Part shown: positions 6,433-31,862 of the stretch, piece after piece
How the letters are laid out: each line of letters opens with the position of its first letter
How positions within the stretch are numbered: position 1 is the stretch's first letter
NCBI GenBank assembly: GCA_016872645.1
Contig: VGZH01000045.1
Span: 1 to 46,717 of the forward strand
DNA: 46,717 nucleotides
Direction of reading: 5' to 3'
From: Planctomycetota bacterium
Lineage (GTDB): Bacteria; Planctomycetota; Planctomycetia; Planctomycetales; Planctomycetaceae
Translations under genes and position numbers: made by a program
The notes under the pieces: generated by a model
The model's input: the letters and a program-made list of their open reading frames with translations, nothing else
Told to the model about the DNA's origin: nothing
The model's database searches: none

Positions 6433-7275
6433 CTACCAAGTTGTGGCCATCATCTTTTCGCGTGACGGCCGTTGATCAGTCGGTCGTGGAAGCTCACTCG
6501 CCACATCCAGCAACATCACCGAGTCAATGCGGTGGACATCCTCGTGCTCAGCAACAGCCAACGCCAAGCGGCACAGGCGGACGATCTCGCGCGGCACGCC
6601 ACCGCTCAGGTCAAACATTGCCTCCGCCGCATCGCGCTGAAAAACCTCGCGACGGTGACCGGTACGGTCGAGCAACTCTCGGACGAACGATTCTGTCTCA
6701 CGACGGCTCAAGCCAGGGAGTTCGATTCGCAACTCCGATTGTTCGGCCAATTCTCCGAACAACAATTGCCCATGTCCCGCGCGAGCCGCCGCCAGAATCG
6801 TCAGGCCACCATCATTCGCAACATCGAGGTGCAGCAAACGCTCGATCATGCTGAGGCAATCCGCTTGGGCGCGTTCGAGGTGATCGAACAACAGCACACT
6901 CGGCAAACGGGCCGAGTGCAGTGCGCGCCAGTGGTCGCGGACCGCTCGCCACAGAGTCCCGTGCGACCAGTGGCCGGCTGGCCCCAGTCGCAAGCCAACG
7001 GCCAATTGAAACAGCAGGTCGTGTGAATCGATTCCAAACAGCTCAATCGTGGCGACCTCGCGACCCAACCGCTTTGCCTCGTGAGCGGCCGCATTCAGGA
7101 CGAGGGATTTGCCAGTTCCGGCCGGTCCAAGCATCAAGCCAAATCGCCCACGATGCTCGACCAAATAGCTCAGCCGAGCCAACGCCTCTTCATGCGGCGG
7201 AGTCGTAATCAACCTGCCCTGGCCGAGCAGGCCTTGCAACGCAACGTCATTCTGTTCCCAATACCGCTCGTGCAT
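6433..7275 (-). CDS. ExeA-like AAA ATPase
   Basis: A 280-residue cytoplasmic ATPase of the ExeA/GspA type. It starts with YWEQNDVALQGLLGQGRLI-like sequence followed by HEEALARLSYLVEHRGRFGL, the usual entry to this fold. Walker A is GPAGTGKS at 50-57. The Walker B strand is SVLLFDHLERA around 126-136, with Asp131 but no acidic residue directly after it, where ExeA has DEAQ. A sensor-like strand LTILAAARAG and a C-terminal helical lid (SGGVPREIVRLCRLAL) follow. ExeA proteins usually have a peptidoglycan-binding domain or a GspB partner; neither is present here. GGAG lies seven bases before ATG 7275. The whole gap to rsmE is a short inverted repeat. Confidence 0.85.
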   Translation of the reverse strand: MHERYWEQNDVALQGLLGQGRLITTPPHEEALARLSYLVEHRGRFGLMLGPAGTGKSLVLNAAAHEAKRLGREVATIELFGIDSHDLLFQLAVGLRLGPAGHWSHGTLWRAVRDHWRALHSARLPSVLLFDHLERAQADCLSMIERLLHLDVANDGGLTILAAARAGHGQLLFGELAEQSELRIELPGLSRRETESFVRELLDRTGHRREVFQRDAAEAMFDLSGGVPREIVRLCRLALAVAEHEDVHRIDSVMLLDVASELPRPTDQRPSREKMMATTW

Positions 7276-7286
7276 TCGCGTTCTCC

Positions 7287-7347
7287 GTAGCCCGACTCTC
7301 CGAGTCGGATGCTTTCAAACAGAACCCGACTCGGAGAGTCGGGCTAC
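7287..7347. repeat. GTAGCCC palindromic element, copy 1 (perfect 22-bp arms)
   Basis: The 22 bases at 7287-7308 (GTAGCCCGACTCTCCGAGTC plus GG) are exactly repeated in inverse orientation at 7326-7347, with a 17-base spacer. Each arm is itself a small hairpin, CCGACTC and GAGTCGG around TCC. It lies between the divergent ATPase and rsmE genes, ending 11 bases from the ATPase start codon. It could fold as one long stem or as two separate hairpins. Confidence 0.9.
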
Positions 7348-7381
7348 TCGAATCCGTCTTCGGCAGAGGCCCCGGCATCAC

Positions 7382-8167
7382 ATGACTCGCCCACAATCTG
7401 CACGACCAGAATCGCCGGTCGAACGCTTCTTCCTTCCGCAACCGTTACAGCTTGCCATGCCGGATGACGCCGTCGAACTGGATGGTCCCGAAGCTCATCA
7501 CCTGTTGCACGTCCTGCGAGCGAAGGTCGGCGACCGAGTCGGTCTGTTCAACGGTCAGGGAGACGAAGCGATCGCCGAGTTGATCAGTCATCGCAAGAGG
7601 ACGGCTCACTTTCGAATTCTCAATCGCTGGACAACATCCGCTGACACCGACGAGTTGATTCTCGCTACCCCGTTGCCGAAAGGAGACCGCGCCCGCTGGC
7701 TGGTCGAGAAGGCAACGGAACTCGGAGTGACGCGGATCATCCCGTTGCGCACCGCTCGCAGCATCGTCGAACCGGGTGATGGAAAGATGGACAAGCTTGC
7801 GCAAGCCGCGATCGCCGCTTGCAAGCAGAGCGGCCGGTCACGTCTCCCGCGACTCGATCCGGTGACAACGTTGTCCGAGGTGCTTTTGGAATTCACGGCA
7901 GCGCCGCTACCGAAATGTCTGTTGCTGGCCGATCCGCGCGCGGAGCGAGCTCTTGGCGAAATGCTCGGATGCAAAGTGCCAACCACGATGGCCTTGATCG
8001 GGCCCGAGGGAGGATTCACTGCGGACGAACACTCCGCAGCCATTGCGGCCGGCGCGAATTCGGTGCGGTTGGGCCCGCACATCCTGCGCATCGAAACGGC
8101 GGTGCTGGCGATGAGTGCGGCATGGGCCAGTCAAGGCCTACAAAGACAAACGACAAATGCAAATTGA
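7382..8167 (+). CDS. rsmE: 16S rRNA m3U1498 methyltransferase RsmE
   Basis: A 261-residue SPOUT-class methyltransferase that uses S-adenosylmethionine to methylate N3 of U1498 in 16S rRNA, near the ribosomal decoding centre. An N-terminal PUA-like region (residues 14-85, with EAHHLLHVLRAKVGD) is followed by the SPOUT domain: LPKGDRARWLVEKATELGV at about 98-116, ACKQSGRSRLP at 146-156, LIGPEGGFTADE and LGPHILRIETAVL in the deep knot that binds the cofactor. Length is close to the E. coli enzyme (243 residues) plus a short N-terminal extension. ATG 7382 is the only sensible start. The TGA stop lies at the left edge of a palindromic repeat. Confidence 0.95.
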   Translation: MTRPQSARPESPVERFFLPQPLQLAMPDDAVELDGPEAHHLLHVLRAKVGDRVGLFNGQGDEAIAELISHRKRTAHFRILNRWTTSADTDELILATPLPKGDRARWLVEKATELGVTRIIPLRTARSIVEPGDGKMDKLAQAAIAACKQSGRSRLPRLDPVTTLSEVLLEFTAAPLPKCLLLADPRAERALGEMLGCKVPTTMALIGPEGGFTADEHSAAIAAGANSVRLGPHILRIETAVLAMSAAWASQGLQRQTTNAN

Positions 8168-8243
8168 ACAGAAGGGCCCCAAAGGAACGAAGACAAACAA
8201 CCCTCAATCGTTGAGCTTCGTTACCTTTGTTTCTTTCTGTTAA
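8164..8243. repeat. AACAGAAGG...AACGAAG palindromic element, copy 1
   Basis: The left arm TTGAACAGAAGGGCCCCAAA, continuing to GGAACGAAG (8164-8192), is matched inversely by CTTCGTTACCTTTGTTTC, continuing to TTTCTGTTAA (8216-8243). The tip is a small palindrome CTCAATCGTTGAG at 8203-8215. The left arm includes the TGA stop of rsmE. A diverged second copy lies at 20152-20234. Confidence 0.7.
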
Positions 8244-8892
8244 CCCTGTTCTTCTCCTTGTGTTGACGCACGAAAACACCTCGCGGTACGTCTCACGCAC
8301 CGCGAGGTTCGTATTGGCTGGCGGAGGTCTCTCAGTCTCAATTCAAAGAAACGCCAGCGCAGCTTCCACAATTCAAAAGGGAGTGCCGTTCGCAATCGTT
8401 GTGACACGAAGAGAGCCTGACGCGTTCACCTCCACCGCTCTCACACAGGGGAGACTCACAACGGTGAATCATCACGTTGCGTCACTGCTTGATACCGTTT
8501 CGCCGCTGGCAGCAGGGATCCCAAACCGGGCAGGGATGTTTTCCGATCAAAGATCTCGGAATGTTCTGAATCACCACCCGTCTGCGAGGCGGATCACATC
8601 GCTGATCAAACGCACTGTTCGTGCCCGAACGACTCGTTGCCGAAACACAACGGGCAAATCGTCGATGTCACCGGACGACAACGGCGCGACAGAAGCCTCA
8701 CGGAATCACGACTCAGCAACGACTTGCAAACGCAGAATCAGCGAATTTCGAAAGACATTGATGACTTCTCTGCCACGGGGCGAATCAGCCCGCTGAGCGA
8801 TCCGTGCTAAGGGCCATTGATAATCTGTTGAGCCCAAGCGCTCTCGATGACGAGCGCAGGAGGGCGGCGCAGAAACTCACCGCCGCGGCGCG
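8168..8892. other. 725-base stretch without a convincing gene
   Basis: It holds the right part of the palindromic element above, a hairpin at 8279-8307, and a possible broken coding frame at 8493-8896, listed separately. A 189-codon open frame at 8227-8796 has no recognisable domain and a residue make-up unlike the neighbouring proteins (many Arg, Ser, Thr and His), so I do not call it. I found no tRNA, RNase P, tmRNA or 6S RNA signature on either strand. Confidence 0.5.
8279..8307 (-). terminator. Possible terminator hairpin
   Basis: CCTCGCGGT (8279-8287) pairs perfectly with ACCGCGAGG (8299-8307) over an 11-base loop. Read on the minus strand the stem is followed by TGTTTTCG, a weak U-tract, so it could stop leftward transcripts coming from the TrmH-family gene. 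That gene ends almost 600 bases away, so the link is uncertain. Confidence 0.35.
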
Positions 8893-8896
8893 CTAA
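8493..8896 (+). pseudogene. Possible frameshifted coding remnant, no family recognised
   Basis: From 8493 the frame is open for 105 codons to TAA 8808-8810 but has no ATG. It contains protein-like stretches such as DHIADQTHCSCPNDSLPKHN and ISKDIDDFSATGRISPLSDP. At the point where it ends, the next frame (through 8804) continues with VLRAIDNLLSPSALDDERRR and AAQKLTAAAR to TAA 8894-8896. A single one-base indel near 8800-8808 would join the two into one plausible C-terminus. No family is recognised. It overlaps the stop of the convergent TrmH-family gene by four bases. Chance open frames are common at this GC content, so confidence is low. Confidence 0.25.
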
Positions 8897-9804
8897 GAAT
8901 TTGAGACGCAGTGCCCCATCGACGGCGCATCGAGTGCCGAGTTGGTGAAGTGGTAGAGAAAAATCCCCGCCGCGACAGCGACATTCAGCGAGTCAGCCGC
9001 ACGCATCGGAATCGTCAATCGACGATCACACAGATCAAGCCATTCCGGGCCGAGACCATTCGCCTCGTTGCCAAACAGCAACGCCAGCCTTGCCGGTCGG
9101 CGAGCCTGCCCCAGCGGTTCTGCCGGTTCCGTCGCATGGACGCCCTCGTCCGAGCACTCGGGCCAAGGCGGACCAACCAAAAACTCCTCGTCCGTCGGAT
9201 CGTCGTTCTCAACCACCGTCGCCGCGAGTTGCACGTGCCACTCAGACTTCAATCGTCGCAGGTCCGCACTCAAGTCGCGACTGCAAACAACTGGCAGGGT
9301 CAGAGCATTGCCCATTGATACTCGCAGAACTCGCCGCGAAAACGGATCGGCGCACGCTGGTCCCAGAAGCATCGCGTCGATGCCGAAGGCGGCTCCGAGT
9401 CGAATCAGCGTGCCGACATTTTCGGGATCTTTCACGTCGGGGCAGACAATGAACGTCTTCCGATCTCCGCCGCGAGCCATGATTTCGTCGAGTCTCGGGT
9501 TCGGCTTGCGGAACGCACAGACCATCGCGCCGCAGTGAAAGTTGTAACCGACCAGCTCAGCCGCCAGTGACTGCGGCATCACGAAAGTTGGAATGTCGGG
9601 TCGCAGCCACGACGAGAATTCATCGACGCGATTTTCGGTAAGCAATATCGACTCGACGACATAATCCGTCGCCAGCAGCCGTTTCGCCAGCCGCGCCCCT
9701 TCGGCGATGAACCGGCCTTTCCAGTGGGAATGCCGAATGGCTTTGACATCACGAAAGACGACGAGTCGTGGGTCATCCAGTGTCTGAATGGGAATGAGCG
9801 GCAT
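8893..9804 (-). CDS. TrmH-family SPOUT RNA methyltransferase
   Basis: A 303-residue RNA 2'-O-methyltransferase of the SpoU/TrmH family. The N-terminal substrate-binding part (about 1-95, with KGRFIAEGARLAKRLLAT) resembles the L7Ae-like domain of rRNA and tRNA methylases. The three SPOUT motifs follow: DPENVGTLIRLGAAFGIDA, LALLFGNEANGLG, and IPMRAADSLNVAVAAGIFLY, which form the S-adenosylmethionine knot. Between motifs 1 and 2 there is an unusually long acidic insert of about 35 residues (around NDDPTDEEFLVGPPWPE). The exact target nucleotide cannot be told from sequence. I use ATG 9804; a GTG at 9810 is an alternative. A GTAGTCC-type repeat begins nine bases before the ATG, leaving little room for a normal ribosome site. 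Confidence 0.88.
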   Translation of the reverse strand: MPLIPIQTLDDPRLVVFRDVKAIRHSHWKGRFIAEGARLAKRLLATDYVVESILLTENRVDEFSSWLRPDIPTFVMPQSLAAELVGYNFHCGAMVCAFRKPNPRLDEIMARGGDRKTFIVCPDVKDPENVGTLIRLGAAFGIDAMLLGPACADPFSRRVLRVSMGNALTLPVVCSRDLSADLRRLKSEWHVQLAATVVENDDPTDEEFLVGPPWPECSDEGVHATEPAEPLGQARRPARLALLFGNEANGLGPEWLDLCDRRLTIPMRAADSLNVAVAAGIFLYHFTNSALDAPSMGHCVSNS

Positions 9805-9813
9805 GGGCACATC

Positions 9814-9868
9814 GTAGTCCGGTCGCTCCGTGACCGGAACGCTCCGAGTTACGGGGAGACTCCGCTAC
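9814..9868. repeat. GTAGCCC palindromic element, copy 2 (degenerate)
   Basis: The left arm GTAGTCCGGTCGCTCCGTGA, continuing to CCGG (9814-9837), contains a perfect hairpin TCCGGTC...GACCGGA. The right arm ending GGGGAGACTCCGCTAC (to 9868) is a decayed inverse match of it. The element fills the gap between the start of the TrmH-family gene and the TGA (9871-9873) of the DUF1501 gene. Confidence 0.6.
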
Positions 9869-9870
9869 GC

Positions 9871-11142
9871 TCACGCGATCAACCGCTCGATCGGTTTGCC
9901 AGAGCTAAATCGCATCGGGCGGCCGATCGGGGTCAGTACCTCTTTGTCGAACTCGATGCCGAGTTGCCGCAGGATCGTCGCAAACAGGTCGGGAATCTCG
10001 ATCGGATCGTGCGGCATCGCGGTCGATTTTTTGGCGTCTTGTTCGACTTGCGGTTCGCTGTCGGTTTCGCCGATGACAATTCCGGAACGGAGTCCTCCGC
10101 CGCCGACAAGGCAAGAAAAACCTTTCGGCCAATGATCGCGGCCTCCAAGGCCGTTGATCTTCGGAGTACGTCCGAACTCGCCGATGCACAGGACGACTGT
10201 TGAGGCCAACAGATCACGTTGCTTGAGGTCGTGGATCAGCGCGGACATTGCGGGGTCGAGTTCCTTGGCCTGTGTCTTGTGCCCTTCGAAATTGTTGGCG
10301 TGCGTGTCCCAACCCATCAGTGTGACCTCGACGGCTCGAACCCCGGTCTCAACCAATCGTCGCGCGGCAAGGCAACCGTGGCCGAATTGCGTGTCACCGT
10401 AGGCATCGCGGATCGCTTGCGGCTCTTGATCGATCTCGAACGCTCGCAGCTGTTCTGAGGTCATCATGCGCAACGCGCGTTCAACGGTCAGTTGATGCAA
10501 GGTGTTCTCGACTTGCACGCGGCGACCAGCTTGAAACGCTTTGCTGACGGCGTCCAACCCTTTCAGGCGTTGCTGCTGACGGACATCGCCGACGCGAGGC
10601 TGCAAGTTGCGGATGCCGTTGGCCGGATCGTAGATCTTGAACGCATCGAACATCTCACCGAGGAAGCCGCCACGAGCTGGAAACTGCCCGCCAAGCAACG
10701 ATATGTGCGTTGGGATTTCGAGCTTCTCGTCCGGCAATTCGTGACTGGCAATCGCCCCCAGCGACGGATGGATCAGAGTCGGGTCGGGGCGATAGCCGGT
10801 CTTCAGCAAGTACGTCCCACGCTCGTGGTCCCCTTCTTTCGAGACGAGCGAGCGAATCACATTCAACTCGTGAATCTGCTCGGCGACCCGCGGATACATG
10901 TCGGCGATTTCGAGACCCGGGACCGTCGTCTTGAGGGACTTCGTCAGCCCGCCGATCTTCGTGCCGGGATGAGGATCCCACGTCTCCAATTGACTGGCGC
11001 CTCCGCCAAGCCAGATGACGATCAGTGACTTTTTCCGTTCGACACCGCGAGCTTCAGCGGCTCGCAGATCGAGGCTGGGAAACGCAAATGACAAACTGGA
11101 CATGCAAGCAGCTTTTAGAAGATCGCGGCGTGAACGATGCAT
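9871..11142 (-). CDS. Tat-exported DUF1501 protein
   Basis: A 423-residue protein of the DUF1501 family, which has an alkaline phosphatase/sulfatase-like fold. It begins with a twin-arginine type signal (SRRDLLKAA) and a hydrophobic stretch ending near residue 30, so it is expected outside the cytoplasm. Family landmarks are IVIWLGGGASQLETWDPHPG at about 41-60, DHERGTYLLKTGYRP, WDTHANNF and IGEFGRTPKINGLGGRDHWP, which carry the Asp and His residues that would bind metal. The biochemical activity of DUF1501 proteins is not established. AGGAGG lies six bases before ATG 11142. The gene follows the DUF1549/1553 gene by 103 bases on the same strand, the pairing common in Planctomycetota. Confidence 0.92.
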   Translation of the reverse strand: MHRSRRDLLKAACMSSLSFAFPSLDLRAAEARGVERKKSLIVIWLGGGASQLETWDPHPGTKIGGLTKSLKTTVPGLEIADMYPRVAEQIHELNVIRSLVSKEGDHERGTYLLKTGYRPDPTLIHPSLGAIASHELPDEKLEIPTHISLLGGQFPARGGFLGEMFDAFKIYDPANGIRNLQPRVGDVRQQQRLKGLDAVSKAFQAGRRVQVENTLHQLTVERALRMMTSEQLRAFEIDQEPQAIRDAYGDTQFGHGCLAARRLVETGVRAVEVTLMGWDTHANNFEGHKTQAKELDPAMSALIHDLKQRDLLASTVVLCIGEFGRTPKINGLGGRDHWPKGFSCLVGGGGLRSGIVIGETDSEPQVEQDAKKSTAMPHDPIEIPDLFATILRQLGIEFDKEVLTPIGRPMRFSSGKPIERLIA

Positions 11143-11245
11143 GGCAGCCTCCTCGGAGTGCGGCGCGTCAGAGCCGCTTCCGACCTTTCCGTCTCGTTGA
11201 GGTCACAACATTTAAAGCGATGCTGACACACCGCAGTCCAAAGGG

Positions 11246-13117
11246 TCAGTGGTTCCACGCGAACTCTGGCGAGTTGAACAGAATCCAATAGATGTCTTCG
11301 ACGCGATTGCCACGGCTCATCAAATTGTCTTTTCCGTCGGGGCGTTGGTCGCTCAGCAGCGGCAACAGTTCGGTGAATTCGTCATCGGTCGGTCGCCGCG
11401 TGAGGCCGATGAGGAAGCACAGCTCCAAACATTGCCGATCCTCTTTGGCCATGCCCGAAATGCGGCCGCTGGCGGAGAACGGCGTCGCGTCGATGGTTTC
11501 GCGGACCAAGTTGCCGTTCATGCGGAGCAGCGCTTGCGGGATTGTGCCGGCTCGGTCTTCGAGTTCGTTCTCGCCGAGGTCGCCGTATTCTTTCACGAAT
11601 TCGTTCGACCGCGTCAGCTTGATGAACCGTGAGATCAAGTGCGAGTTCTGGTCGATCGTGGTCAACGATGACGATTGCAGCAACGAGCCGATGATTTGCT
11701 CCGGCCGCAAACGAGTCAGCGGGAAGATCGCAAAGTGCTCCTTCATCTGCTCCAGTCTTGGTCCGTCATCGAGGTCAGATTTGGATTCCAACAGAAACGG
11801 ATTCGAGGCCAGAATGACTTCGATCAAACGGCGCAGGTCATAGCGGTGCTCGCGGAAGTCGGCTCCCAGCACATCGAGCAAATCTTGCTCTCCGGCCTTC
11901 AGTGCCTTCGGATGTTTGGCTCCCTCAACCTGCGGGCCGGGGATCTGATCTCCTGGCGGGTCTGGCAAGTCATCAACCGGCTCGATCCACGAGCGGCCGA
12001 AAAGCAATCCCCAGACGCGATTAACGATCGCGCGTTCGAACCGGCGGTTTTCCGAGTGTGTCACCCAGGTGGCGAGTCGCTCTCGGCCAGTGCCGTCGGT
12101 CGGCTCCCATTTCTCGCCGAACGGAACCTCTGGCTCGACGACCTTCTTCTCCAAAGTGTTTCGATCTTCGACCTCAAACTTCAGATCACGGTCCTCGCGC
12201 ACGCCGACCGGGCTGAGTTTGAGTTGTCCAAAGTGTGCGGCGAGTCCGGCGAACTCGTTTTGCTTCCAATGATCGAACGGGTGATCGTGGCACTGAGCGC
12301 AGTCGATCCGCTGGCCGAGAAACGCTCGCACCGCTCGGCCGGCGAGCTTGTTCTGGTTGAATCCCTCACCGTCGTTGTAGCCGGCCATCACGAAATTGAC
12401 TTCTGGTTGGTCGGTCCACAGGCCGTTGCCAGCAATCATCTCGCGAACCAATTCTGGATACGGGCGATTGGCTTCAAGCTGCTCACTGAGCCACCTCAGA
12501 AATCGGTCGCGGCGATAGACAATGAACTGCCCTTCTTCGACACCCACAAAGCCGCGAGCCAGTCGCTCGGCGAAGTAATCGAAGTAGCGTTGATCATGCA
12601 AGAACCGAGCGGTCCACCGTTGCAATCGATCCGGCCCGGAGTCTTGTTCGAACGCTCGAATTTCTTCGAGCGAGGGAACCGTTCCCATCAATGCCAGCGC
12701 AATGCGTCTCAGTACGGCCAACTCGTCCGCCGTCTTCGTCGGCTGCAAATCTTCGCTCGCCCAACGTCGAGTGAAAAAGGTGTTGACCTTTTGAATCGAC
12801 TCGTCGATGCCCGTTGTCGGGTTCGCCGACTCTTCGGTTGCGATCCCTTTGAGCGGTTGGCTGGTGACAAAACTCACCAACCAGATGACCGCCAGCAACA
12901 CAATGCCGGGAAGCAGCAATTTCCATCGCATGAGATCGCCTTTCGTGGCAGTTCCGTCTCGCATCTGTCGGGCTCGAGACACATCGGCCACCTGATACCA
13001 CTCGACGCCCTGCGGCGTTTCAGGGATCATCGCGAAACCGTGGCCGATGCGTCGAGGTATATCGGCCGGACGAGGAGCTTTCGTGCGTGTTTCGCCTTGA
13101 GGTTTTTTGATCAGCAA
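11246..13117 (-). CDS. DUF1549/DUF1553 protein with haem-type CxxCH motif
   Basis: A 623-residue membrane-anchored protein. A cytoplasmic N-terminus of about 62 residues precedes one membrane helix (LLLPGIVLLAVIWLVSFV). DUF1549 follows, with LRRIALALMGTVPSLEEIRA-like sequence and CAQCHDHPFDHWKQNEF carrying Cys273, Cys276 and His277, a c-type haem-like motif characteristic of this family. DUF1553 forms the C-terminal half (FERAIVNRVWGLLFGR, FPLTRLRPEQIIGSL, LGLTRRPTDDE-like ending). Role unknown; an outer-surface redox or polymer-handling function with its DUF1501 partner is often guessed. I chose TTG 13117 because GGAGGA lies about ten bases upstream and the extension looks coding; ATG 12931, right before the helix, is the alternative. 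Confidence 0.88.
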   Translation of the reverse strand: MLIKKPQGETRTKAPRPADIPRRIGHGFAMIPETPQGVEWYQVADVSRARQMRDGTATKGDLMRWKLLLPGIVLLAVIWLVSFVTSQPLKGIATEESANPTTGIDESIQKVNTFFTRRWASEDLQPTKTADELAVLRRIALALMGTVPSLEEIRAFEQDSGPDRLQRWTARFLHDQRYFDYFAERLARGFVGVEEGQFIVYRRDRFLRWLSEQLEANRPYPELVREMIAGNGLWTDQPEVNFVMAGYNDGEGFNQNKLAGRAVRAFLGQRIDCAQCHDHPFDHWKQNEFAGLAAHFGQLKLSPVGVREDRDLKFEVEDRNTLEKKVVEPEVPFGEKWEPTDGTGRERLATWVTHSENRRFERAIVNRVWGLLFGRSWIEPVDDLPDPPGDQIPGPQVEGAKHPKALKAGEQDLLDVLGADFREHRYDLRRLIEVILASNPFLLESKSDLDDGPRLEQMKEHFAIFPLTRLRPEQIIGSLLQSSSLTTIDQNSHLISRFIKLTRSNEFVKEYGDLGENELEDRAGTIPQALLRMNGNLVRETIDATPFSASGRISGMAKEDRQCLELCFLIGLTRRPTDDEFTELLPLLSDQRPDGKDNLMSRGNRVEDIYWILFNSPEFAWNH

Positions 13118-13144
13118 GAGTGTCCGTCCTCCACGAGTATCGCC

Positions 13145-14503
13145 GTGAGTATTTCAGGATCGACGAAACCAGGCGTTCGCCAGCCGCTCCCTTCGGAGGA
13201 ACGGGGGACATCCCATTCGCCTGACGAGTTGCCGACGCTGGTTGCCGATGGACCGCCGCTTAAGCCACTTCCCGGTTGGACGGCTCAACCACCTGCGTCG
13301 CCGGTTCTCGTCCCTGACGAACAGTCCGCTGAAATCGAAGCCTCGACGCTGCTGCCAGTCCTCGAAGCAGAACTTGTCGCCGACCGACTGCCTCCGTTTC
13401 CGGTGCCGTGGCGGCATCCGATCCTGTGTGCGATGTGGATCGTCCGCACGCTGTTTGGCCTTGCGAGCCTGACGTTGCTCTTGGCGGTCGCGGCTGCCGT
13501 GCCGCTGGTGAATTTTTGGGTTCTCGGCTATCTGCTGGATGTTGAGGGTCGAGTCGCTCGCAGTGGCAAGATTCGAGCGTCGTTTCCGTTGCTGGGATTG
13601 GCACCGCGCTTCGGCTCGATCGTGCTGGGGACTTGGCTGTGCGTGCTGCCGCTGCGACTGCTGGCCGGAGCGGCGACAGACGCGGCCTTGATTGATCCGA
13701 ATGGTGAGGTCGCGGCGCGTTGGGCGTTCGGACTGTTCGTCGCGAAGTGGCTGATGACCGCGCATCTTTGTTTGGCTTTGGCTCGTGGCGGCGCGTTGTC
13801 CTGCTTTTTCCGGCCCATCAAGAACCTTCGTTGGCTGCTGGCTCGTTGGCGAGATCACGACTATTGGAATCGGGCCTCGACGGCAATTGGCCAGTTCCTT
13901 TCTGGTCTGAATGCTCGACCGTACTACTCGGTCGGCTGGCGTGGCTTTCTTGGAACAGCGGCGTGGTTGTTCATTCCCTCGGCGCTCTATGGCTCATTGC
14001 ACGATCCGGAGAAACCCGCGCAGGTACTCGTAATGTTGACTGGCGGATTCGGCCTGTGGTTGACGCTGATGTGGGCGCCGATTCTGCAAGCTCGCTTCGC
14101 GGCGGAGAACCGCATGATGTCGTTTAAGGAACTCGGCACGGCTCGTGAACTGTTTCGTCGCGCGCCGTTCGCGTGGTTGTTGGCCATCGTGCTGACGTAC
14201 TTGCTGGCGCTGCCGATGTACCTGTTCAAAGCGGTCTCACCCCCGCAAGACGCGATGTGGTTTATCACGATCCTGTTCGTGGTCTCGATCTTTCCGACGA
14301 AAGTTGCACTCGGCTGGGCCTACGGCCGCTCGATCCGCCACACCAAACGTGCGTGGTGGCCGTGGCGCTGGCTCTGCAAGATCGTGCTGAGCCTCCTGGT
14401 GGCGATCTACGTCTTCATCCTGTTCTTCACTCCCGCAATTGGCGAACACGGTCGCCGAGTGCTGTTCGAACATCATACGCTGCTGCTGCCCGTGCCGTTT
14501 TGA
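13145..14503 (+). CDS. Polytopic membrane protein of unknown function
   Basis: A 452-residue protein. The first 90 residues are Pro- and Glu-rich and probably disordered in the cytoplasm. About eight hydrophobic segments follow, among them LTLLLAVAAAVPLVNFWVLG, WAFGLFVAKWLMTAHLCLAL, FAWLLAIVLTYLLALPMYLF and IVLSLLVAIYVFILFF. The phrase VPLVNFWVLGYLLDVEGRVA resembles the entry to DUF4013-type membrane proteins, but I cannot confirm that. No catalytic motif is visible. The start is uncertain: the frame is open far upstream through the antisense of the neighbour gene, and GTG 13145 is chosen because it clears that gene by 27 bases; no strong ribosome site is seen. It converges on the molybdopterin oxidoreductase gene. 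Confidence 0.75.
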   Translation: MSISGSTKPGVRQPLPSEERGTSHSPDELPTLVADGPPLKPLPGWTAQPPASPVLVPDEQSAEIEASTLLPVLEAELVADRLPPFPVPWRHPILCAMWIVRTLFGLASLTLLLAVAAAVPLVNFWVLGYLLDVEGRVARSGKIRASFPLLGLAPRFGSIVLGTWLCVLPLRLLAGAATDAALIDPNGEVAARWAFGLFVAKWLMTAHLCLALARGGALSCFFRPIKNLRWLLARWRDHDYWNRASTAIGQFLSGLNARPYYSVGWRGFLGTAAWLFIPSALYGSLHDPEKPAQVLVMLTGGFGLWLTLMWAPILQARFAAENRMMSFKELGTARELFRRAPFAWLLAIVLTYLLALPMYLFKAVSPPQDAMWFITILFVVSIFPTKVALGWAYGRSIRHTKRAWWPWRWLCKIVLSLLVAIYVFILFFTPAIGEHGRRVLFEHHTLLLPVPF

Positions 14504-14513
14504 CACGGAATCA

Positions 14514-14598
14514 CCCGAAGTGTCAGCCAGGGCGAGTGCTCCCGAACGCTGCCAATTCAGAGCCCGGGAATCACATGCCCGCGCTGACGCTTCGGTTT
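14514..14598. repeat. CCGAAG(C/T)GTCAGC palindromic element between convergent genes
   Basis: CCCGAAGTGTCAGCCAGGGC (14514-14533) matches the inverse of GCCCGCGCTGACGCTTCGGT (14577-14596) at 16 of 20 positions. It lies exactly between the ends of the membrane protein gene and the oxidoreductase gene, and its right arm touches the oxidoreductase stop codon. It may serve both genes as a bidirectional transcription terminator, although no U-tract is present. Confidence 0.55.
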
Positions 14599-16765
14599 AC
14601 AGGGTCCTGGTTACTTGCACGAGATTGTCAAAGAATGTCGCGCCGCCGCCGAGATCCGTGAGCCGTGTGGGTGTCGTTGAATTACTGTTGCAGCGACCGG
14701 AGCTGTGCTTGTTCCACCAGATGCTCGGTGCGACGACGACTCCGGGCTGGACCTTGTCGCCGACGATTGCTCGCGCGATGAACGAGCCGCGGTCGTTGAA
14801 GACGTTGACGAGGTCGCCTTCCTGAATTTCGCGGGCAGTCGCGTCCGCAGCGCTGATCTCCAACTGCGGCTCAATCGCCGAACGTCGCAGTGAATCGACC
14901 TCGACAAACGTCGAATTCAAGAAATGTGGCGACGGGGGCGACAATAATTGCAACGGAAACCGCTTCGCCAATTCGGGAGCAGACGCCGGAGACTCCGCAG
15001 GAGGGATGAACGTCGGCAACGGATCAAAACCAAGTTGTGCCAGCCGTTCGCAGCGCAGTTCGCATTTGCCACTGGGTGTCGCGAAGCCACCGTTCGCGAA
15101 GGGGGTGGTCAAACGTAGCCCGAACCCTTGTGGGTCGGTTGATTCGGCCGATTCGGACGAATCACTCAGGCCACTAGGGCCTGGGTGAGAGATCTTCGTT
15201 GCAGAACTGAGCTTGATTGCCCCTTCGCATTTCAAACGTTCCAGCGTGATCCCTCGCATCGCCGCCGGAACATTTTCCACGGGGCCAGTCTCCCAAAGTA
15301 ATTCGCGAGCGAGTTGTTCGTCGGACACGTCAAACAACTCCGGCTCGAAGCCGAGCCGCCCCGCAAGACCGCGAAAAACTTCGGTGTTGCAGCGTGACTC
15401 GCCCAACGGAGCAATTGCTGGGACGTTGACCTGCACAAACTGATGACCGTAAGAGCCATGCAAATCGAAATGCTCAAGCTGCGTTGTCGCCGGCAGAACG
15501 ATGTCGGCGTAATCGACGGTGTCGGTCGGGAACTGATCGTGAACGATGGTGAAAAGGTCGTCGCGTCGCAGACCAGCGAGCACTCGCTGTTGATCCGGCG
15601 CGATCGCGGCGGGGTTGCTGTTGTAGACGTACAACGCCTGTACCGGCGAACCGGGCAGTTCGCCGTGCAACGCCTCGGCGAGCTGCGTCATATTGACCGT
15701 ACGTGTCCCCGGCGGAACCAGGTCAGGACGCTGCACCGCTGCGAGATTGAACGCAAACGTGCCACTGGTCGAAAGCAAGATACCTCCGGCCGAATGACGC
15801 CACGCCCCGATGACTGCCGGAAGACACGCGATCGTCCGCACAGCCATTCCGCCGCCGGCATGTCGCTGCATCCCATAGTTGATGCGGATGACGCTCGGAA
15901 CCGTCTTGGCGTACTCACGCGCGAGTTGCCCAATCTCCGCGATGTCGAGGCCGGTGATCTCGGCGACTCGCTGCGGGGCGTAGTCGGACAAGACTCGTGT
16001 TCGCAGTTCGTCGCCGCCCAGGCAGTGATCGCGCAGGTAGTCTTCATCTGCGAGGCCGTCTCGGAAGATGACGTGCATCAGGCCGAGCGCGAGAGCGGCG
16101 TCCGTCCCCGGTCGCGGCGCGAGATGCCAGTCGCTCCGAGCAGCCGTGACGGAACGATACGGGTCGATCGTGACGATCTTCGCGCCGTGCCGTTTGCGAG
16201 CCTCCACCATTCGCACCCAAAGGTGCATGTTCGTGACTGCCGTATTCGAGCCCCAGTTGATGATGTACTGCGATTGGCTGAACGCATCGGGATCGGTCCC
16301 TTGCTTACTGCCGATCGTCATCGTGTAGCCAAGCCCACCCGCCGTCGCGCAAATCGTGCGGTCAAGCAACGAGGCTCCGAGTCGATGAAAGAAGCGGCGG
16401 TCAAGTCCTTCACTCTGAATCTTCCCCATCGTGCCGCAATAGCTGTACGGCAAGATCGCTTGCGGCCCATGTGGTCCATCCGCGATTGCTTGGAAGCGAG
16501 CCGTGATTTCGTCGAGCGCCGCGTCCCACGAGATCCTTTCAAACTGGCCGGAACCTTTCGGACCGACGCGCCGCATCGGGAACATCAACCGATCGCGGTG
16601 ATAAACCCGCTCGGGATACCGCGAGACCTTGTGACACAAGAACCCCCGCGTGAAGGGATGCTCCCGATCGCCCCGAACCGCGACAGCGCGATCGCCGTCC
16701 AATGTGACGAGCATCGCACACGCATCGGGGCAGTCGTGCGGGCAAACGGCGCGGACAGTCGTCAT
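14597..16765 (-). CDS. Molybdopterin-dependent oxidoreductase, DMSO reductase family
   Basis: A 722-residue enzyme of the molybdopterin guanine dinucleotide family. An N-terminal [4Fe-4S] motif is formed by Cys8, Cys12, Cys16 and Cys44 (CPHDCPDAC and GFLCHK). The catalytic domains follow (SYCGTMGKIQSEGLDRRFF, RTICATAGGLGYT, YIINWGSNTAVTNMHLW, INYGMQRHAGGGMAVRTIA), then a C-terminal dinucleotide-binding beta barrel (EISAADATAREIQEGDLVNV, GVVVAPSIWWNKHSSG). The cysteine in RTICATAGG may ligate molybdenum; that is inference. No Tat signal is visible, so it is probably cytoplasmic, and its substrate is unknown. ATG 16765 follows the AraD1 stop by one base (TAATATG) with AAAGG upstream. The linker before the last domain appears to contain a palindromic repeat at 15115-15138. 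Confidence 0.9.
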   Translation of the reverse strand: MTTVRAVCPHDCPDACAMLVTLDGDRAVAVRGDREHPFTRGFLCHKVSRYPERVYHRDRLMFPMRRVGPKGSGQFERISWDAALDEITARFQAIADGPHGPQAILPYSYCGTMGKIQSEGLDRRFFHRLGASLLDRTICATAGGLGYTMTIGSKQGTDPDAFSQSQYIINWGSNTAVTNMHLWVRMVEARKRHGAKIVTIDPYRSVTAARSDWHLAPRPGTDAALALGLMHVIFRDGLADEDYLRDHCLGGDELRTRVLSDYAPQRVAEITGLDIAEIGQLAREYAKTVPSVIRINYGMQRHAGGGMAVRTIACLPAVIGAWRHSAGGILLSTSGTFAFNLAAVQRPDLVPPGTRTVNMTQLAEALHGELPGSPVQALYVYNSNPAAIAPDQQRVLAGLRRDDLFTIVHDQFPTDTVDYADIVLPATTQLEHFDLHGSYGHQFVQVNVPAIAPLGESRCNTEVFRGLAGRLGFEPELFDVSDEQLARELLWETGPVENVPAAMRGITLERLKCEGAIKLSSATKISHPGPSGLSDSSESAESTDPQGFGLRLTTPFANGGFATPSGKCELRCERLAQLGFDPLPTFIPPAESPASAPELAKRFPLQLLSPPSPHFLNSTFVEVDSLRRSAIEPQLEISAADATAREIQEGDLVNVFNDRGSFIARAIVGDKVQPGVVVAPSIWWNKHSSGRCNSNSTTPTRLTDLGGGATFFDNLVQVTRTL
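15115..15138. repeat. GTAGCCC-type half element inside the oxidoreductase gene
   Basis: GTAGCCCGAACCCTTGTGGG, continuing to TCGG, has the same plan as the intergenic elements: a GTAGCCC start and a hairpin (CCGAACCC, TTGT, GGGTCGG). Only one arm is present. On the minus strand it is read in frame as part of DPQGFGLR, inside a Ser/Glu/Asp-rich linker of the oxidoreductase. A second small hairpin, AGGCC-ACTA-GGGCCT, lies close by at about 15168-15182. Confidence 0.5.
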
Positions 16766-16766
16766 A

Positions 16767-17783
16767 TTACGCACCTTTCGGTCGTGATACCGGATTCGTC
16801 AGCGGAGCACTCCACCCGGTTGCTTCAATCTTCACGACGTCGCCGTCGGCGAATTTCCAATCGCGAGTCGAATAACTCAGCTTGCTGGTTCCGAAGAAAT
16901 GCAGATGCACGTCGCCGGGCAAGCGATGCTGCGGATACTTGAAGTGATGGTCTTCGAGGTTTGCCAGCGAGTGGCTCATATGCTGCTCGCCGCTGAAGAG
17001 CATCCCGCTGTCGTAGATCGCCTGCTTGCCGCGAGTCACCGTGCAGCGCAATGAGACCTCTTGGAAATCCCAATCGGTGTGAAGTTCTGGTCCGACCGCG
17101 CAGCTTCGGAGCTTCGACGGGGCGAGATAGAGGTAATTGATTTTCTCGGTGGCGTGGTCCGACCACTCGTTCCCCAGCGAGAAGCCCAATCTAGTCGGTA
17201 CGCCGAGCCTGTTGATGACGTAGCCGCCGACGATCTCCGGTTCCTCGCCGCCATCGAGTGCGAACTCCGGGATGTCGAGCGGCTCGCGCGGGCCGCGCAG
17301 GATCGTGCCGTTTCCTTTGTAGAACCATTCGGGAGCAACGCCGCGCTGGCCGAGAGCCGGTTTGCCTCCGGCCAGCCCCATTTCAAACATCTTCGCCGAA
17401 TCGGTCTTCGGAGCGGTTGAAGCTTCGGCCGTGATGTGCATCTCATCTCGCGATTTCATGCTGCCGAGATGCGTCAGGCCCGTGCCCGTCACGAGCGTGC
17501 GGTAAGGATCGGGATGATCGAGGGGCGGCAGCAGGAACGGCTTGTCGCCATGCGGTCCGTTCGACAGCACGAACTTGTAGTCGAATCGCCGCGGCGTCTC
17601 TTTCGCTCGCGGCGCGAGCAACTCCGACAGCGACACGCCCCGATCATCGGCAAGTTGAAACGCTTCGTAGGTCGAACGAATCGTCGGCGCGCCGTCGATC
17701 TCGGTGACATCGAGAATCTTGTCACCGTTGATCACGCCAAGTCGGCGGCCACGATCGGAGGTCTGTAGCTGGACGATTCGCAT
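16767..17783 (-). CDS. AraD1/GguC-family protein (FAH-like fold)
   Basis: A 338-residue protein that resembles GguC/AraD1 proteins, relatives of fumarylacetoacetate hydrolase implicated in sugar-acid metabolism. It begins MRIVQLQTSDRGRRLGVING and has IRSTYEAFQLADDRGVSLSE near 35-55, LVTGTGLTHLGSM near 98-110, PEWFYKGNGTILRGP near 153-168 and EPEIVGGYVINRLG in the metal-site region. Known relatives act on 2-keto-3-deoxy sugar acids; the substrate here cannot be assigned. One base separates its stop from the molybdopterin oxidoreductase start, suggesting co-translation and perhaps a shared oxidative pathway (inference). ATG 17783 lies only four bases from a 24-base palindrome arm, so it lacks a normal ribosome site; a TTG at 17819 would translate the repeat. 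Confidence 0.82.
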   Translation of the reverse strand: MRIVQLQTSDRGRRLGVINGDKILDVTEIDGAPTIRSTYEAFQLADDRGVSLSELLAPRAKETPRRFDYKFVLSNGPHGDKPFLLPPLDHPDPYRTLVTGTGLTHLGSMKSRDEMHITAEASTAPKTDSAKMFEMGLAGGKPALGQRGVAPEWFYKGNGTILRGPREPLDIPEFALDGGEEPEIVGGYVINRLGVPTRLGFSLGNEWSDHATEKINYLYLAPSKLRSCAVGPELHTDWDFQEVSLRCTVTRGKQAIYDSGMLFSGEQHMSHSLANLEDHHFKYPQHRLPGDVHLHFFGTSKLSYSTRDWKFADGDVVKIEATGWSAPLTNPVSRPKGA

Positions 17784-17787
17784 AAAT

Positions 17788-17911
17788 GTAGCCCTGTCGC
17801 TCCGCGACAGGATGGCCAAGGTGAGTGGAAATCTATTGTGAAATCGACTGTCAAATACCGATCAGCGTCGGTCACGCGATCGGCTTGCCTGTCGCGGAGC
17901 GACAGGGCTAC
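17788..17911. repeat. GTAGCCC palindromic element, copy 3 (perfect 24-bp arms)
   Basis: GTAGCCCTGTCGCTCCGCGA, continuing to CAGG (17788-17811), is exactly inverted at 17888-17911, with 76 bases between. Each arm folds on itself: CCTGTCGC, GGA loop, GCGACAGG. The element spans from four bases before the AraD1 start codon to the stop codon of the pseudouridine synthase: that TAG is part of GTAGCCC read on the minus strand. Confidence 0.92.
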
Positions 17912-18606
17912 GGCTTGGGCCAATCGTGCGGCAGCGGGGCTGTGACGGTAAGTGGATCGTAGCGGACGGGATGCTGGAACGTCAGCGAATGCGCGTGCAG
18001 CGCGATTCGTTGTACTTCGGCAAACGGCAAGCGAGTTGAGCCGTACTGTGTGTCGCCGAGAACCGGCCAGCCACGGCTGGCGAACTGCACGCGGATCTGG
18101 TGCATCCGGCCGGTGTGCGGTTCGATCTCGACGAGCGATGAGTTGTCGTGAGTCACGAGCACTCGGTACGACAACCGGCACCCGCGAGCTCCTGGCGTGA
18201 CGGCAGAGACGACTTCAGCTCGCGACTGTTCGGGGAGCTTCAGAATCCAGTCGGTCAAATCGCCGGCGGGCGGATCGGGAATCCCTTCGACGACGGCCCA
18301 ATAGATTTTGCGAACGTCGCGCTGCTCAAATTGCTCGGCCATGCGCGCGGCGGCTTTCGAGTTTCGCGTGAAGACGATCACTCCGGAGACACCTCGATCG
18401 AGCCGATGCGGAATGCCGAGATACACGTTGCCCGGCTTGTCGTGGCGTTCTTTGAGCCAGGCTTTGACCTCGGCTGCGAGCGACGGCACGTCGGGCGGAG
18501 CCTGCGTCAACAATCCTGCTGGTTTGTTGATCGCCAGGATCGGACCATCTTCGAGCAACACGGACCACACAGGCATGTCAGGCTCGCAATCGGCGAGCGA
18601 TTTCAT
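17908..18606 (-). CDS. RluA-family pseudouridine synthase (first copy)
   Basis: A 232-residue enzyme that isomerises uridine to pseudouridine in rRNA or tRNA. The catalytic aspartate is Asp70 in GIPHRLDRGVSGVIVF, the RluA signature. ILAINKPAGLL at 23-33, EIEPHTGRMHQIRVQFASRG near 165-185 and LGDTQYGS complete the fold. There is no S4 domain, so it is of the short stand-alone type and its target site is unknown. ATG 18606 overlaps the end of glyS by 29 bases; ATG 18576, one base after the glyS stop (TGACATG), is equally possible. Either way it is probably co-transcribed with glyS. Its TAG stop codon is part of the adjoining palindromic repeat. Confidence 0.88.
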   Translation of the reverse strand: MKSLADCEPDMPVWSVLLEDGPILAINKPAGLLTQAPPDVPSLAAEVKAWLKERHDKPGNVYLGIPHRLDRGVSGVIVFTRNSKAAARMAEQFEQRDVRKIYWAVVEGIPDPPAGDLTDWILKLPEQSRAEVVSAVTPGARGCRLSYRVLVTHDNSSLVEIEPHTGRMHQIRVQFASRGWPVLGDTQYGSTRLPFAEVQRIALHAHSLTFQHPVRYDPLTVTAPLPHDWPKP

Positions 18607-25893: not shown

Positions 25894-25919
25894 GGAGGGG
25901 CAAGAGTGCCCATCCAACA

Positions 25920-30019: not shown

Positions 30020-30985
30020 ATGACACTTCGCACCTTGGGCCGAACTTCGTTGATGGTGACGCCGCTGGGAATGGGCTGCTGGCCGATCTCCGGGATTACC
30101 AGCACCGACGTCAACGAGGCGGACAGCTTGGCCACGATTCGCGAGGCATCCGCGGCGGGCATTAATTTCTTTGATACGGCCTATTGCTACGGGTTCGACG
30201 GTGAAAGCGAACGAATGCTTGCCCTAGTTTTGCGGCAAGATCGGGACAAGATCGTCTTGGCGTCCAAGGGAGGCATCCATTGGATCGACGGCAAACAGGT
30301 TCGGTGTGGCCGGCCGGAGAGACTGCAGCATGAATGCGACGAGAGCCTGCGGCGTCTACAAACGGATCGCATCGACCTCTACTACCTGCATGCTCCCGAT
30401 CCAGACATCCCAATCGAAGAATCGGCTGGTGCGATTGGCGAGCTGATCCGGCAAGGCAAAGTGCTCAGCGCGGGACTCTCCAACGCGAGCACCGAATTGC
30501 TTGCACGGTTTCAGGCAGTCTGCCCGCTGACGGCATTTCAGCCGCATTTCAACATGCTGCAACGGGAGATCGAGGATTCGCAGTTGTCTTGGTGTGTCGA
30601 GAGGGACGTCGCCGTCGTCGTCTACTGGCCGCTGATGAAAGGCCTGTTGGCGGGCCACCTGCCGCGCGAGCATGTCTTCGATGCGAAGGATGGCCGCCGA
30701 AAATATCCGATGTTCTCCGGCGATGAATGGCAGAAGAATCAAGACTTCCTCGACGACCTGCGTGCGATGTCGCTGGAACTCGGTCGTCCAGTCTCGCAGA
30801 TCGTGCTCAACTGGACGATCCAGCGAGCCGGAATCACCGTCGCGCTGTGTGGAGCCAAACGTCCGCATCAAATCCGAGAGAATGCCGCAGCCATGAACTG
30901 GTCGCTGACCGATGCCCAAATTGCCCGGATCAACCGGGCCATTGCCGCGCGAGGGTCGATCATCTCGAAGTCTGCCGTGTCGTAG
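30020..30985 (+). CDS. Aldo/keto reductase
   Basis: A 321-residue NAD(P)H-dependent reductase with a TIM barrel. The catalytic tetrad is Asp52 (FFDTAYCYG), Tyr57, Lys83 (LASKGGIHW) and His124 (YYLHAPDPDIP). SAGLSNASTELLARF and ITVALCGAKRPHQIRENAAA mark the barrel strands that shape the cofactor pocket. It is of the long, dimer-type branch used on diverse aldehydes and sugars; the substrate cannot be inferred. GAGGG lies close upstream of ATG 30020. Its last codons and TAG stop lie inside a short hairpin of the GTAGCCC family, and the convergent RluA gene ends eight bases beyond. Confidence 0.9.
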   Translation: MTLRTLGRTSLMVTPLGMGCWPISGITSTDVNEADSLATIREASAAGINFFDTAYCYGFDGESERMLALVLRQDRDKIVLASKGGIHWIDGKQVRCGRPERLQHECDESLRRLQTDRIDLYYLHAPDPDIPIEESAGAIGELIRQGKVLSAGLSNASTELLARFQAVCPLTAFQPHFNMLQREIEDSQLSWCVERDVAVVVYWPLMKGLLAGHLPREHVFDAKDGRRKYPMFSGDEWQKNQDFLDDLRAMSLELGRPVSQIVLNWTIQRAGITVALCGAKRPHQIRENAAAMNWSLTDAQIARINRAIAARGSIISKSAVS

Positions 30986-30997
30986 CGGCAGGGCTAC
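30972..30997. repeat. GTAGCCC-type half element between convergent genes
   Basis: CTGCCGTGTCGTAGCGGCAG followed by GGCTAC holds a hairpin (CTGCCG and CGGCAG) and the GGGCTAC end shared with the other elements. Its bases give the TAG stop of the reductase (30983-30985) and, on the other strand, the TAG stop of the RluA gene (30996-30994), which is again part of GTAGCCC. Confidence 0.55.
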
Positions 30998-31698
30998 AAA
31001 CCAAACCGCTTCCACTCGGTCGGATGCGGAGCCGTCACTGTGATCGGTTCGCGTTGCGTGGGGTGCTCGAAGGTCAGCGAGGCTGCGTGCAGAGCCAACC
31101 AGCCGTCGAGCTTTGTCTTCGAACCGTACTTGGCATCGCCGCAGATAGGCCAACCGCGAGATGACAACTGCACTCGAATCTGGTGGCTTCGTCCCGTGAG
31201 CAATTCGATTTCCAGCAGACTCACCGATCCAACCGATTTCAAGCGGCGATAGTTTAATTGAGAGAGCTTGCCCTCGTGTTCTGGCTTCGGACTTCTGACT
31301 TCTGGCCTCCAGATCGCGCGGCTCAGATTTGTCGCTTCGTCCTTGACCAGCCAATCGATCAACTCGCCGGTGAGCTTTGGTGGACGCCCTTCAACGACGC
31401 AGTGATAGACTTTGCTGACCGAGTGTTTCCGGAACTGCTCCGACAGCCGTGCCGCCGCTTTGCTGGTTCGAGCCAACAGCAGCACTCCCGACACCGGCCG
31501 GTCAAGGCGATGCACGACTCCGAGGAAAACGTTGCCCGGCTTGTCGTATTTTCGCCGCAAGTATTCGCGAGCCTGATCGACCACCGAGACGTCGCCCGTG
31601 CGATCTCGCATCGTCAAGAGTCCCGCCGGCTTGAGCACCGCAAGGCAATGATTGTCCTCGAACAAGACCTTGAGTTTCAACGCGGGTTCGTGCTTCAC
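30994..31698 (-). CDS. RluA-family pseudouridine synthase (second copy)
   Basis: A 234-residue uridine-to-pseudouridine isomerase. KVLFEDNHCLAVLKPAGLL opens the domain at about 10-28, the catalytic aspartate is Asp66 in GVVHRLDRPVSG, and EIELLTGRSHQIRVQLSSRG with CGDAKYGS complete it. It is related to, but clearly different from, the copy at 17908-18606. Residues 131-142 (RPEVRSPKPEHE) look like an insertion encoded by a repeat-like segment. Start uncertain: GTG 31698 gives the usual length, while the frame is open to a TTG at 31839. The HAD gene diverges from it. Target RNA site unknown. Confidence 0.86.
   Translation of the reverse strand: MKHEPALKLKVLFEDNHCLAVLKPAGLLTMRDRTGDVSVVDQAREYLRRKYDKPGNVFLGVVHRLDRPVSGVLLLARTSKAAARLSEQFRKHSVSKVYHCVVEGRPPKLTGELIDWLVKDEATNLSRAIWRPEVRSPKPEHEGKLSQLNYRRLKSVGSVSLLEIELLTGRSHQIRVQLSSRGWPICGDAKYGSKTKLDGWLALHAASLTFEHPTQREPITVTAPHPTEWKRFGL
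31277..31312. repeat. Repeat-like insert GGCTTCGGACTTCTGACTTC in an RluA gene
   Basis: The stretch TTCTGGCTTCGGACTTCTGA, continuing to CTTCTGGCCTCCAG, is built from iterated (G)ACTTCTG/GGCTTC units unlike the codons around it. It encodes the Pro/Arg/Lys/Glu-rich loop at residues 131-142. Other RluA enzymes are compact here, which suggests a tolerated in-frame insertion. Confidence 0.4.
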
Positions 31699-31862
31699 AA
31701 GCAGTCTCGCTGACGGATTTCGGAATCGCTTTTTGAGAGTCGCAGCGTACTCCAAAAGGAGTCGCTTTGTCGTGGAACCGAAAGCGAGTTTGGTGAATCT
31801 TGGTCTTGGCGATCCGTGCGGGTGGCGACAGACTGCCAAACTTGGAAATCAAGGAGGTGCGG

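Follow-up and report, generated by a model that had tools for sequence, protein, structure and literature searches.

The analysed stretch of DNA, referred to here as the window, is 46,717 nucleotides long and comes from a planctomycete of the family Planctomycetaceae (assembly GCA_016872645.1, contig VGZH01000045.1). It contains two perfect palindromes, at 7287-7347 and 17788-17911, and several degenerate relatives of them, lying beside, between and inside genes (Table 1). The palindromes are here interpreted as REPINs, that is, inverted pairs of repetitive extragenic palindromic (REP) units, and the evidence comes from their structure, from their copies in 120 genomes of the family and from the same positions in other genomes of the genus. 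An initial annotation of the window had described inverted arms of 22 and 24 bases, and both the coordinates and the arms were correct. The two elements fold into single hairpins with 22 and 24 outer pairs and z values of -9.8 and -10.4, respectively, and in neither case did any of 200 dinucleotide shuffles fold as well. In each unit, of 22-24 nt, a GTAG foot and a single spacer base precede a stem of 7 or 8 pairs that is closed by a TCC loop. A lone unit folds with GTAG unpaired on the 5' side, and two inverted units pair into one hairpin at both sites, as is characteristic of REPINs. The elements, 61 and 124 bases long, hold no transposase gene and thus do not qualify as insertion sequences of the IS200/IS605 type. 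The shared plan with differing arms that had been reported stands, with the correction that the two arms represent two separately amplified types.

The remaining observations of the initial annotation were borne out in part. The distances to the neighbouring start codons are as given, namely 11 bases (7275), 4 bases (17783) and 9 or 3 bases (9804/9810), and the TAG of the GTAGCCC foot is indeed the stop codon of both RluA genes (17908-18606 and 30994-31839). The palindromes had been said to fill whole intergenic spaces; this is so for 17784-17907 (120 of 124 bases) and not for 7276-7381 (61 of 106 bases). The supposed half copy at 30972-30997 is better described as a short REPIN remnant running from foot to foot at 30982-30997. 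Taken as a whole, the supposed decayed copy at 9814-9868 is not a better folder than shuffled sequence (z -1.1; 25 of 200 shuffles did as well). Its left half, however, forms a good unit (GTAG T CCGGTCGC TCC GTGACCGG), and longer elements of the same type exist in two congeners.

Table 1. Palindromic elements of the window and the genes next to them.
Feature	Coordinates	Strand	Remarks
REPIN, arm type GACTC	7287..7347	.	Units 7287-7308 (+) and 7325-7347 (-); identical units in G030, near-identical ones beside the L172 RAYT
REPIN, arm type TGTCGC	17788..17911	.	Units 17788-17811 (+) and 17888-17911 (-), GTAGCCCTGTCGCTCCGCGACAGG; identical units beside the L138 and L330 RAYT genes
Decayed REPIN	9814..9868	.	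Left unit 9814-9837 still legible; type found at the site in G125 and G126
REPIN remnant, GTAG-CGGCAGG-GCTAC	30972..30997 (foot to foot 30982-30997)	.	Between the stop codons of two convergent genes
Decayed REPIN, other type (GTAGCCCGAACCCTTGTGGGTCGG ...)	15115..15185	.	Within molybdopterin oxidoreductase gene; absent from the initial annotation
AAA ATPase gene	6433..7275	-	Start 11 bases from the 7287 REPIN
RsmE-type RNA methyltransferase gene	7382..8167	+	
SpoU-type RNA methyltransferase gene	8893..9804	-	
Gene without Pfam match	16767..17783	-	Start 4 bases from the 17788 REPIN
RluA-family pseudouridine synthase gene	17908..18606	-	Stop TAG is the REPIN foot
Second RluA-family pseudouridine synthase gene	30994..31839	-	Stop TAG is the foot of the remnant

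Copies of the units and their transposase genes

The palindromes are not isolated, a point for which the initial annotation had proposed a genome scan; further copies were found, and GTAG is enriched ahead of hairpins. The sample of the own genome (G000) consisted of the window and 20 stretches of 20 kb, 446,717 bases in total. In this sample GTAG was the most enriched tetramer before hairpins of at least 7 bp (15 of 1123 occurrences, or 134 per 10,000 against a mean of 12.7 over all tetramers), followed by TAGC (11 of 825), which marks largely the same sites shifted by one base. The hairpin families of the own genome include GTAGCCACGTTCGCCAGAACGTGG, the window's GTAGCCCTGTCGCTCCGCGACAGG and GTAGGGTCGGCTCCTGCCGACC. 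The family GTAGCCACGTTCGCCAGAACGTGG, the commoner one in the sampled stretches, has paired stem variants at L003 16062-16126, L005 4555, L011 19240 and L014 10309. Copies were counted in the 120 genomes with the pattern GTAGCCCN{3,6}CTCCGN{4,6}GG, by which some sites are counted more than once as GGG also matches GG. The counts were 15 in the own genome, 44, 39, 6 and 5 in the congeners G056, G103, G114 and G083, and 81, 90, 140 and 73 in four genomes of other genera (G067, G049, G030 and G039, respectively); the reversed pattern, used as a control, gave 0-6 per strand. At least one match occurred in 47 of the 120 genomes, many of the isolated ones looking like chance. Among the matches listed, the exact 17788 unit occurs many times in G067 and G049 and the exact 7287 unit in G030, and mostly a third arm, TCATG, is found in G039. 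A search for whole REPINs gave 81 pairs with the foot GT[AG]G, or 79 after overlaps were dropped, against 3-32 pairs with each of eight other feet, so that some of the 79 may be chance. Of these, 48 lie inside open frames of 150 codons, which says little as gene-less long frames are common in this DNA.

Genes for RAYT, the REP-associated tyrosine transposase, carry the same units at their borders. At L138 (G067, JAKFUG010000060.1, Planctomycetaceae bacterium isolate D1_Bin_15) a RAYT gene is bracketed by inverted pairs of the exact 17788 unit, and this RAYT as a query matched in 40 of the 120 genomes, the own genome included. In the congener G125 (CAMDPK010000005.1; locus L330, the same as L247) a RAYT gene also has the exact 17788 unit on both sides. 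The two proteins are 58% identical, yet the 24-nt unit is identical in both. The corresponding locus of the own genome is L169 (G000:C119, 1909-6127), with neighbouring stretches 87-88% identical to those of L330. Here the RAYT is in pieces. Three other genes, one of them MotA/TolQ/ExbB-like, take up about 3.7 kb between its first 51 residues and the later parts of the protein; the insert is missing from L330. By eye, a 17788-type unit stands beside the RAYT start and a decayed one past its end. For the 7287 type, a RAYT gene between GACTC units near-identical to those of the window was found at L172 in G030. No match to it was obtained in the own genome at E 1e-8. The sister genome G121 gave five matches, the best 65% identical over 170 of 229 residues, and the one G121 locus that was fetched (L326) has no GT[AG]G hairpin.

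A Pfam search of the own genome yielded one Y1_Tnp gene (L002), which encodes a RAYT and has inverted GTAGGG units at either side. This gene was rejected as the RAYT of the window elements since it belongs to another family, GTAGGGTCGGCTCCC. Matches to the GTAGGG-type RAYT at E 1e-10 exist in 67 of the 120 genomes, the own genome among them, and GTAG hairpins were present at 26 of 30 fetched loci, again including the own one. Both RAYT types score above the Pfam cut-off for Y1_Tnp, and in an alignment of ten RAYT proteins the P-N-H-x-H motif and Y200 were invariant in all ten. The GTAGGG-type RAYT of the own genome reaches 187.6 bits in NCBIfam REP_Tyr_transpos (NF047646, cut-off 80 bits). A sequence search of solved structures found nothing. 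As a side observation, the congener's RAYT gene itself contains a GTGG-type REP unit, placed at L330 1859 (L247 1850) between its two matched parts. A REP unit within the gene has been reported for one RAYT subclass (PMC6006769). Planctomycete-type RAYT loci also occur in records titled Candidatus Kuenenia stuttgartiensis (L247, L249 and L260); L247 matches a congener of the window genome exactly, and the title may be a mere binning label.

What stays fixed in the units was examined at the loci of 80 named relatives of the 17788-type RAYT, kept from at least 366 relatives. A GT[AG]G hairpin with at least 7 pairs was present at least once at 56 of the 80 loci and at least twice at 52, whereas 20 random feet gave one hairpin at 1-21 and two at 0-12 of the same loci. 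TCC stands in the apex at 50 of the 56 loci with hairpins. The stems were compared in 31 distinct 24-mers selected for a GT[AG]G foot, a TCC loop and pairing at 6 or more of 8 stem positions; one of them, a GTGG unit of the window, looks like chance. Of 248 stem cells, 228 were Watson-Crick, whereas shuffles averaged 125 and never exceeded 150; the way the units were chosen raises this share but does not affect how many kinds of pair occur. All four Watson-Crick pairs are seen at two stem positions and three of them at a further two, and 25 of the 31 units have C-G as the pair next to the foot. The suggestion that structure rather than arm sequence is conserved is borne out by these paired stem changes among units and RAYT loci. 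For TnpA-REP of group 3, work on the Stenotrophomonas maltophilia and Marinomonas enzymes has been described in which GTAG was needed for cutting, a loop base was critical and many stem changes were tolerated but a mismatch was not (PMC8266576). A fixed foot and loop with paired stem changes is what that biochemistry predicts.

Overall, the palindromes are best explained, with a probability of about 0.93, as REPINs made of inverted pairs of GTAG-type REP units, which are non-autonomous and moved in trans by RAYT, a single-strand transposase of the HUH/Y1 kind. We infer the movement itself from the units, their copies, the identically flanked RAYT genes and the element-free sites that were observed, and REPIN presence or absence differs at orthologous sites among congeners. 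The REP-like mobile unit with a RAYT, one of two options in the initial annotation, is strongly supported by the same evidence together with the matching broken RAYT of the own genome. In the proposed mechanism each unit would fold into a short hairpin in single-stranded DNA. RAYT would read the GTAG foot and the TCC loop and require a paired stem of which it reads little sequence, and would cleave beside the hairpin and then rejoin. Because the enzyme would read foot and loop but little of the stem, compensated changes could turn one stem type into another and leave foot and loop unaltered. As the 17788-type RAYT is split and the 7287-type RAYT has no match, both types have probably ceased to spread in their own genome.

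Several findings weigh against parts of this interpretation. No GT[AG]G hairpin of 7 pairs is present at 24 of the 80 RAYT loci, and in an overlapping earlier set (L139-L168) a hairpin of at least 6 pairs was found at 23 of 30 loci and missing at 7. The 17788-type RAYT obtains 50.9 bits in REP_Tyr_transpos, below the cut-off, so that its membership among the RAYTs rests on Y1_Tnp and the flanks. With regard to the end of spread, the arms of both window elements are still perfect, and the L169 break is known from one draft contig. Moreover, 7287-7347 has perfect arms and the shared copy in the sister genome (G121_C535 982-1041) has arm mismatches, the spacers of the two differing, which suggests recent copying or upkeep of the window element.

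Occupancy of shared positions within the genus

The space between the AAA ATPase and RsmE genes around 7287 was compared in the window and ten relatives of the genus. GACTC occupies it in the window and the sister G121, TCGGACGC in G123, G125 and, with a shifted junction, G103, and GACAGGCG in G120, G124 and, in decayed form, G126. G056 carries GGGCACG on a GTGG foot, G114 has no element, and in the distant G083 the inverted repeat is of a different kind. A FastTree tree of 16 proteins pairs G000 with G121, G125 with G123, G103 with G124 and, more weakly (0.73), G056 with G120; set against these pairings, the occupant of the 7287 slot seems to have changed several times. The window's element at 17788 is missing in nine of nine congeners, in all of which the downstream start codon is conserved. 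A REPIN of CCACGTTC lies about 70 bases from the start codon in G124 and G056, and in several congeners the space is longer and another gene lies inside it. At 9814, among seven congeners with both flanks, the window type is present as the longer elements of G125 and G126, another type in G114 and G123, and the genes abut in G056, G103 and G124. At 30982, between the AKR and RluA genes, a full REPIN of GGTTGGGAC is found in G056, G103 and G124, CCACGTTC in G121 and an inverted repeat with GGATGGGCAC in G125.

The relation of the elements to stop codons differs between sites. G114 and G123 have no REPIN at 30982, yet both genes stop with TAG there, which indicates that the REPIN did not create these stops. 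The RluA gene at 17908 ends differently in congeners, as judged by eye, and the REPIN there probably supplied the stop. GTAG feet end open frames of at least 100 codons in 27 of 117 cases. Every GTAG of that DNA taken together, with the feet among them, gives 223 of 1523, and the excess of REP feet as stop codons is therefore only mild.

Across 6433-31839, 36 REPINs from nine genomes fall into 16 slots, decayed elements and the GACAGGCG type being omitted from the count, and six of the slots hold at least two families. Pairs of different families lying within 5 bp of each other numbered 20, whereas 1000 random intergenic placements gave 1.5 on average and never more than 8. The excess is smaller at up to 50 bp, with 27 pairs against 13.2, a number reached in 4 of the 1000. 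Both counts take sister species separately, and their single-linkage grouping lumps some distinct arms, lowering the number of different-family pairs. When each family was counted once per slot, 13 such pairs lay within 10 bp, against 1.6 expected and a maximum of 8 in 5000. All these null models place elements uniformly in intergenic DNA and ignore tolerance. Of the 36 REPINs, 24 lie inside listed frames of the window, some with doubtful frame ends and four at the AKR stop codon. Twelve are well inside genes by alignment to the window genes (slots 9130, 15109-15113, 15896-15905 and 17420). Two of the intragenic slots are in the molybdopterin oxidoreductase gene, whose frame is open through the REPINs in G056, G120, G121, G124 and G125; where the window has its decayed REPIN (15115-15185), congeners hold other REPIN families.

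Two accounts of this re-use of slots were weighed. The one we favour, with moderate confidence, is repeated independent insertion at a few positions that are tolerated by selection or preferred by RAYTs. The base before the foot is C at 94 of 158 junctions, compared with 30% of the DNA, the intergenic spaces are short, and different REPs at about one site have been published for recB genes of Xanthomonas (PMC3733652). The sharing is, however, far above that of random intergenic placement, so that tolerance or preference would have to be narrow; the null model takes no account of tolerance inside coding genes. The other account, exchange in place, appears unlikely; in it, a newly arrived REPIN would oust a resident of a different family between the feet. 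It would fit junctions that agree within a few bases and allele lengths that are similar despite different families. At window 15904 the G125 and G124 alleles share the right flank GGCCCCGCCAGC and differ in REPIN family. Against it, many alleles are empty, so that loss and fresh insertion also occur; tolerated positions may be few, and no allele was caught in mid-exchange. It is doubtful that REPIN sites are lasting slots, in which the occupant family is replaced foot to foot, also inside genes with an open frame, and the position is inherited while the inner sequence turns over as RAYT families come and go. In a narrowly worded literature search, no work on slots being re-used in different species came up, and this speaks only weakly for there being none.

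GTAG as a pre-existing target, in the manner of the TTAC target of IS608, was rejected as a general explanation. It fits the AKR-RluA site. There the window, G114 and G123, whose alleles are REPIN-free, have GTAG within the conserved AKR stop codon, and G120, with TAA as its AKR stop, is without a REPIN. The empty alleles at the 7287, 15904 and 17420 slots have no GTAG at the junction.

Other inverted repeats were seen in the window. At 14514-14600 there is an imperfect one with arms like CCGAAGCGTCAGCG and no GTAG foot, which looks like another element class; at least five different inverted repeats occur there in congeners. A lone decayed REP of the GGATGGGCAC type lies at a gene end at 25894-25918, with better copies at the same place in G123 and G126. 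Downstream of RsmE, 8278-8308 forms a terminator-like hairpin of 14 pairs with a T-rich tail on the minus strand.

Alternative functions and relation to known systems

The initial annotation had also considered the palindromes as translation regulators with a GGAG in the hairpin loop. As cis-acting RNA elements, the hairpins would govern the translation of adjacent genes by exposing or hiding a GGAG near their start codons. The close spacing to the starts at 7275, 17783 and 9804/9810 and the strong folding are in keeping with such a role, and by eye an AGGG within the 17788 element lies 8 bases from the ATG at 17783. However, the gene starting at 7275 has a GGAG of its own, which reads CTCC on the other strand at 7283-7286. 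It stands 7 bases from the ATG, immediately beyond the element, and this CTCC is kept in congeners that have another hairpin type at the site. Most congeners retain the gene pair but have a different type of hairpin, or none, at 7287, and the absence of the 17788 element from all nine congeners points the same way. An Rfam search of the window gave no match, and elements of this sort are also found where genes end or converge and within coding sequence. Control of translation is thus very improbable. Least probable of all is that the palindromes are bidirectional transcription terminators at gene ends: REPs have been reported to lie mostly downstream of coding regions (PMC3733652) and the 17788 and 9814 elements are downstream of one gene and upstream of the next, but a terminator scan lists neither 7287-7347 nor 17788-17911, no T run follows the stem, and the 7287 element lies between divergent genes, where no terminator is expected.

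The REPIN interpretation places the elements among systems that have been described in other bacteria. Di Nocera, De Gregorio, Rocco (2013; PMC3733652) have reported GTAG-tagged REPs with head-to-head dimers, TAG feet as stop codons, intragenic REPs and hosts among the Planctomycetes (R. baltica). REPINs have been described in PMC3116915, RAYT classes and double-foot REPs in PMC6006769, and RAYT/REP co-evolution with REP switching at orthologous RAYTs in PMC2817692 and PMC3686654. Since GTAG REPs, dimers, TAG stops, REPINs and RAYT co-evolution have all been published, the kind of element is already known and the family members found here are new. They add a natural series for RAYT recognition: over 56 loci the foot is constant, as is the loop in 50, and stems vary in a way that preserves pairing, in agreement with in vitro results for two proteobacterial enzymes. 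They also show how much the REPINs at shared positions turn over between sister species, and sampling of one genus could separate hotspot insertion, tolerance and in-place exchange.

Each known system resembles the window elements in some respects and differs in others. The GTAG super-family (PMC3733652) shares the GTAG foot, the short stem and loop, head-to-head dimers, positions next to genes, TAG stops and occurrence in Planctomycetes; here, the arms vary widely within one RAYT clade. The REPINs of Pseudomonas fluorescens SBW25 (PMC3116915) are likewise inverted REP doublets with a spacer that form one hairpin, are proposed to move as a unit and are tied to a RAYT, whereas the present elements belong to another phylum, have far fewer copies in the window's genome and have a split matching RAYT. 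The REPtrons and TnpA-REP of group 3 (PMC8266576, PMC6006769) are alike in the short perfect palindrome, the GTAG foot, the importance of the short loop and a stem that tolerates sequence change but not mismatch, and differ in that the 17788-type RAYT is only a sub-threshold match to NCBIfam REP_Tyr_transpos. The REP 'orthoswitch' of pseudomonads and stenotrophomonads (PMC3686654) is similar in that orthologous RAYTs have different REP arms and old REPs are expected to decay after RAYT loss; there the REPs compared are those beside RAYT genes, whereas in the present genus it is the ordinary REPIN sites that differ in family between species.

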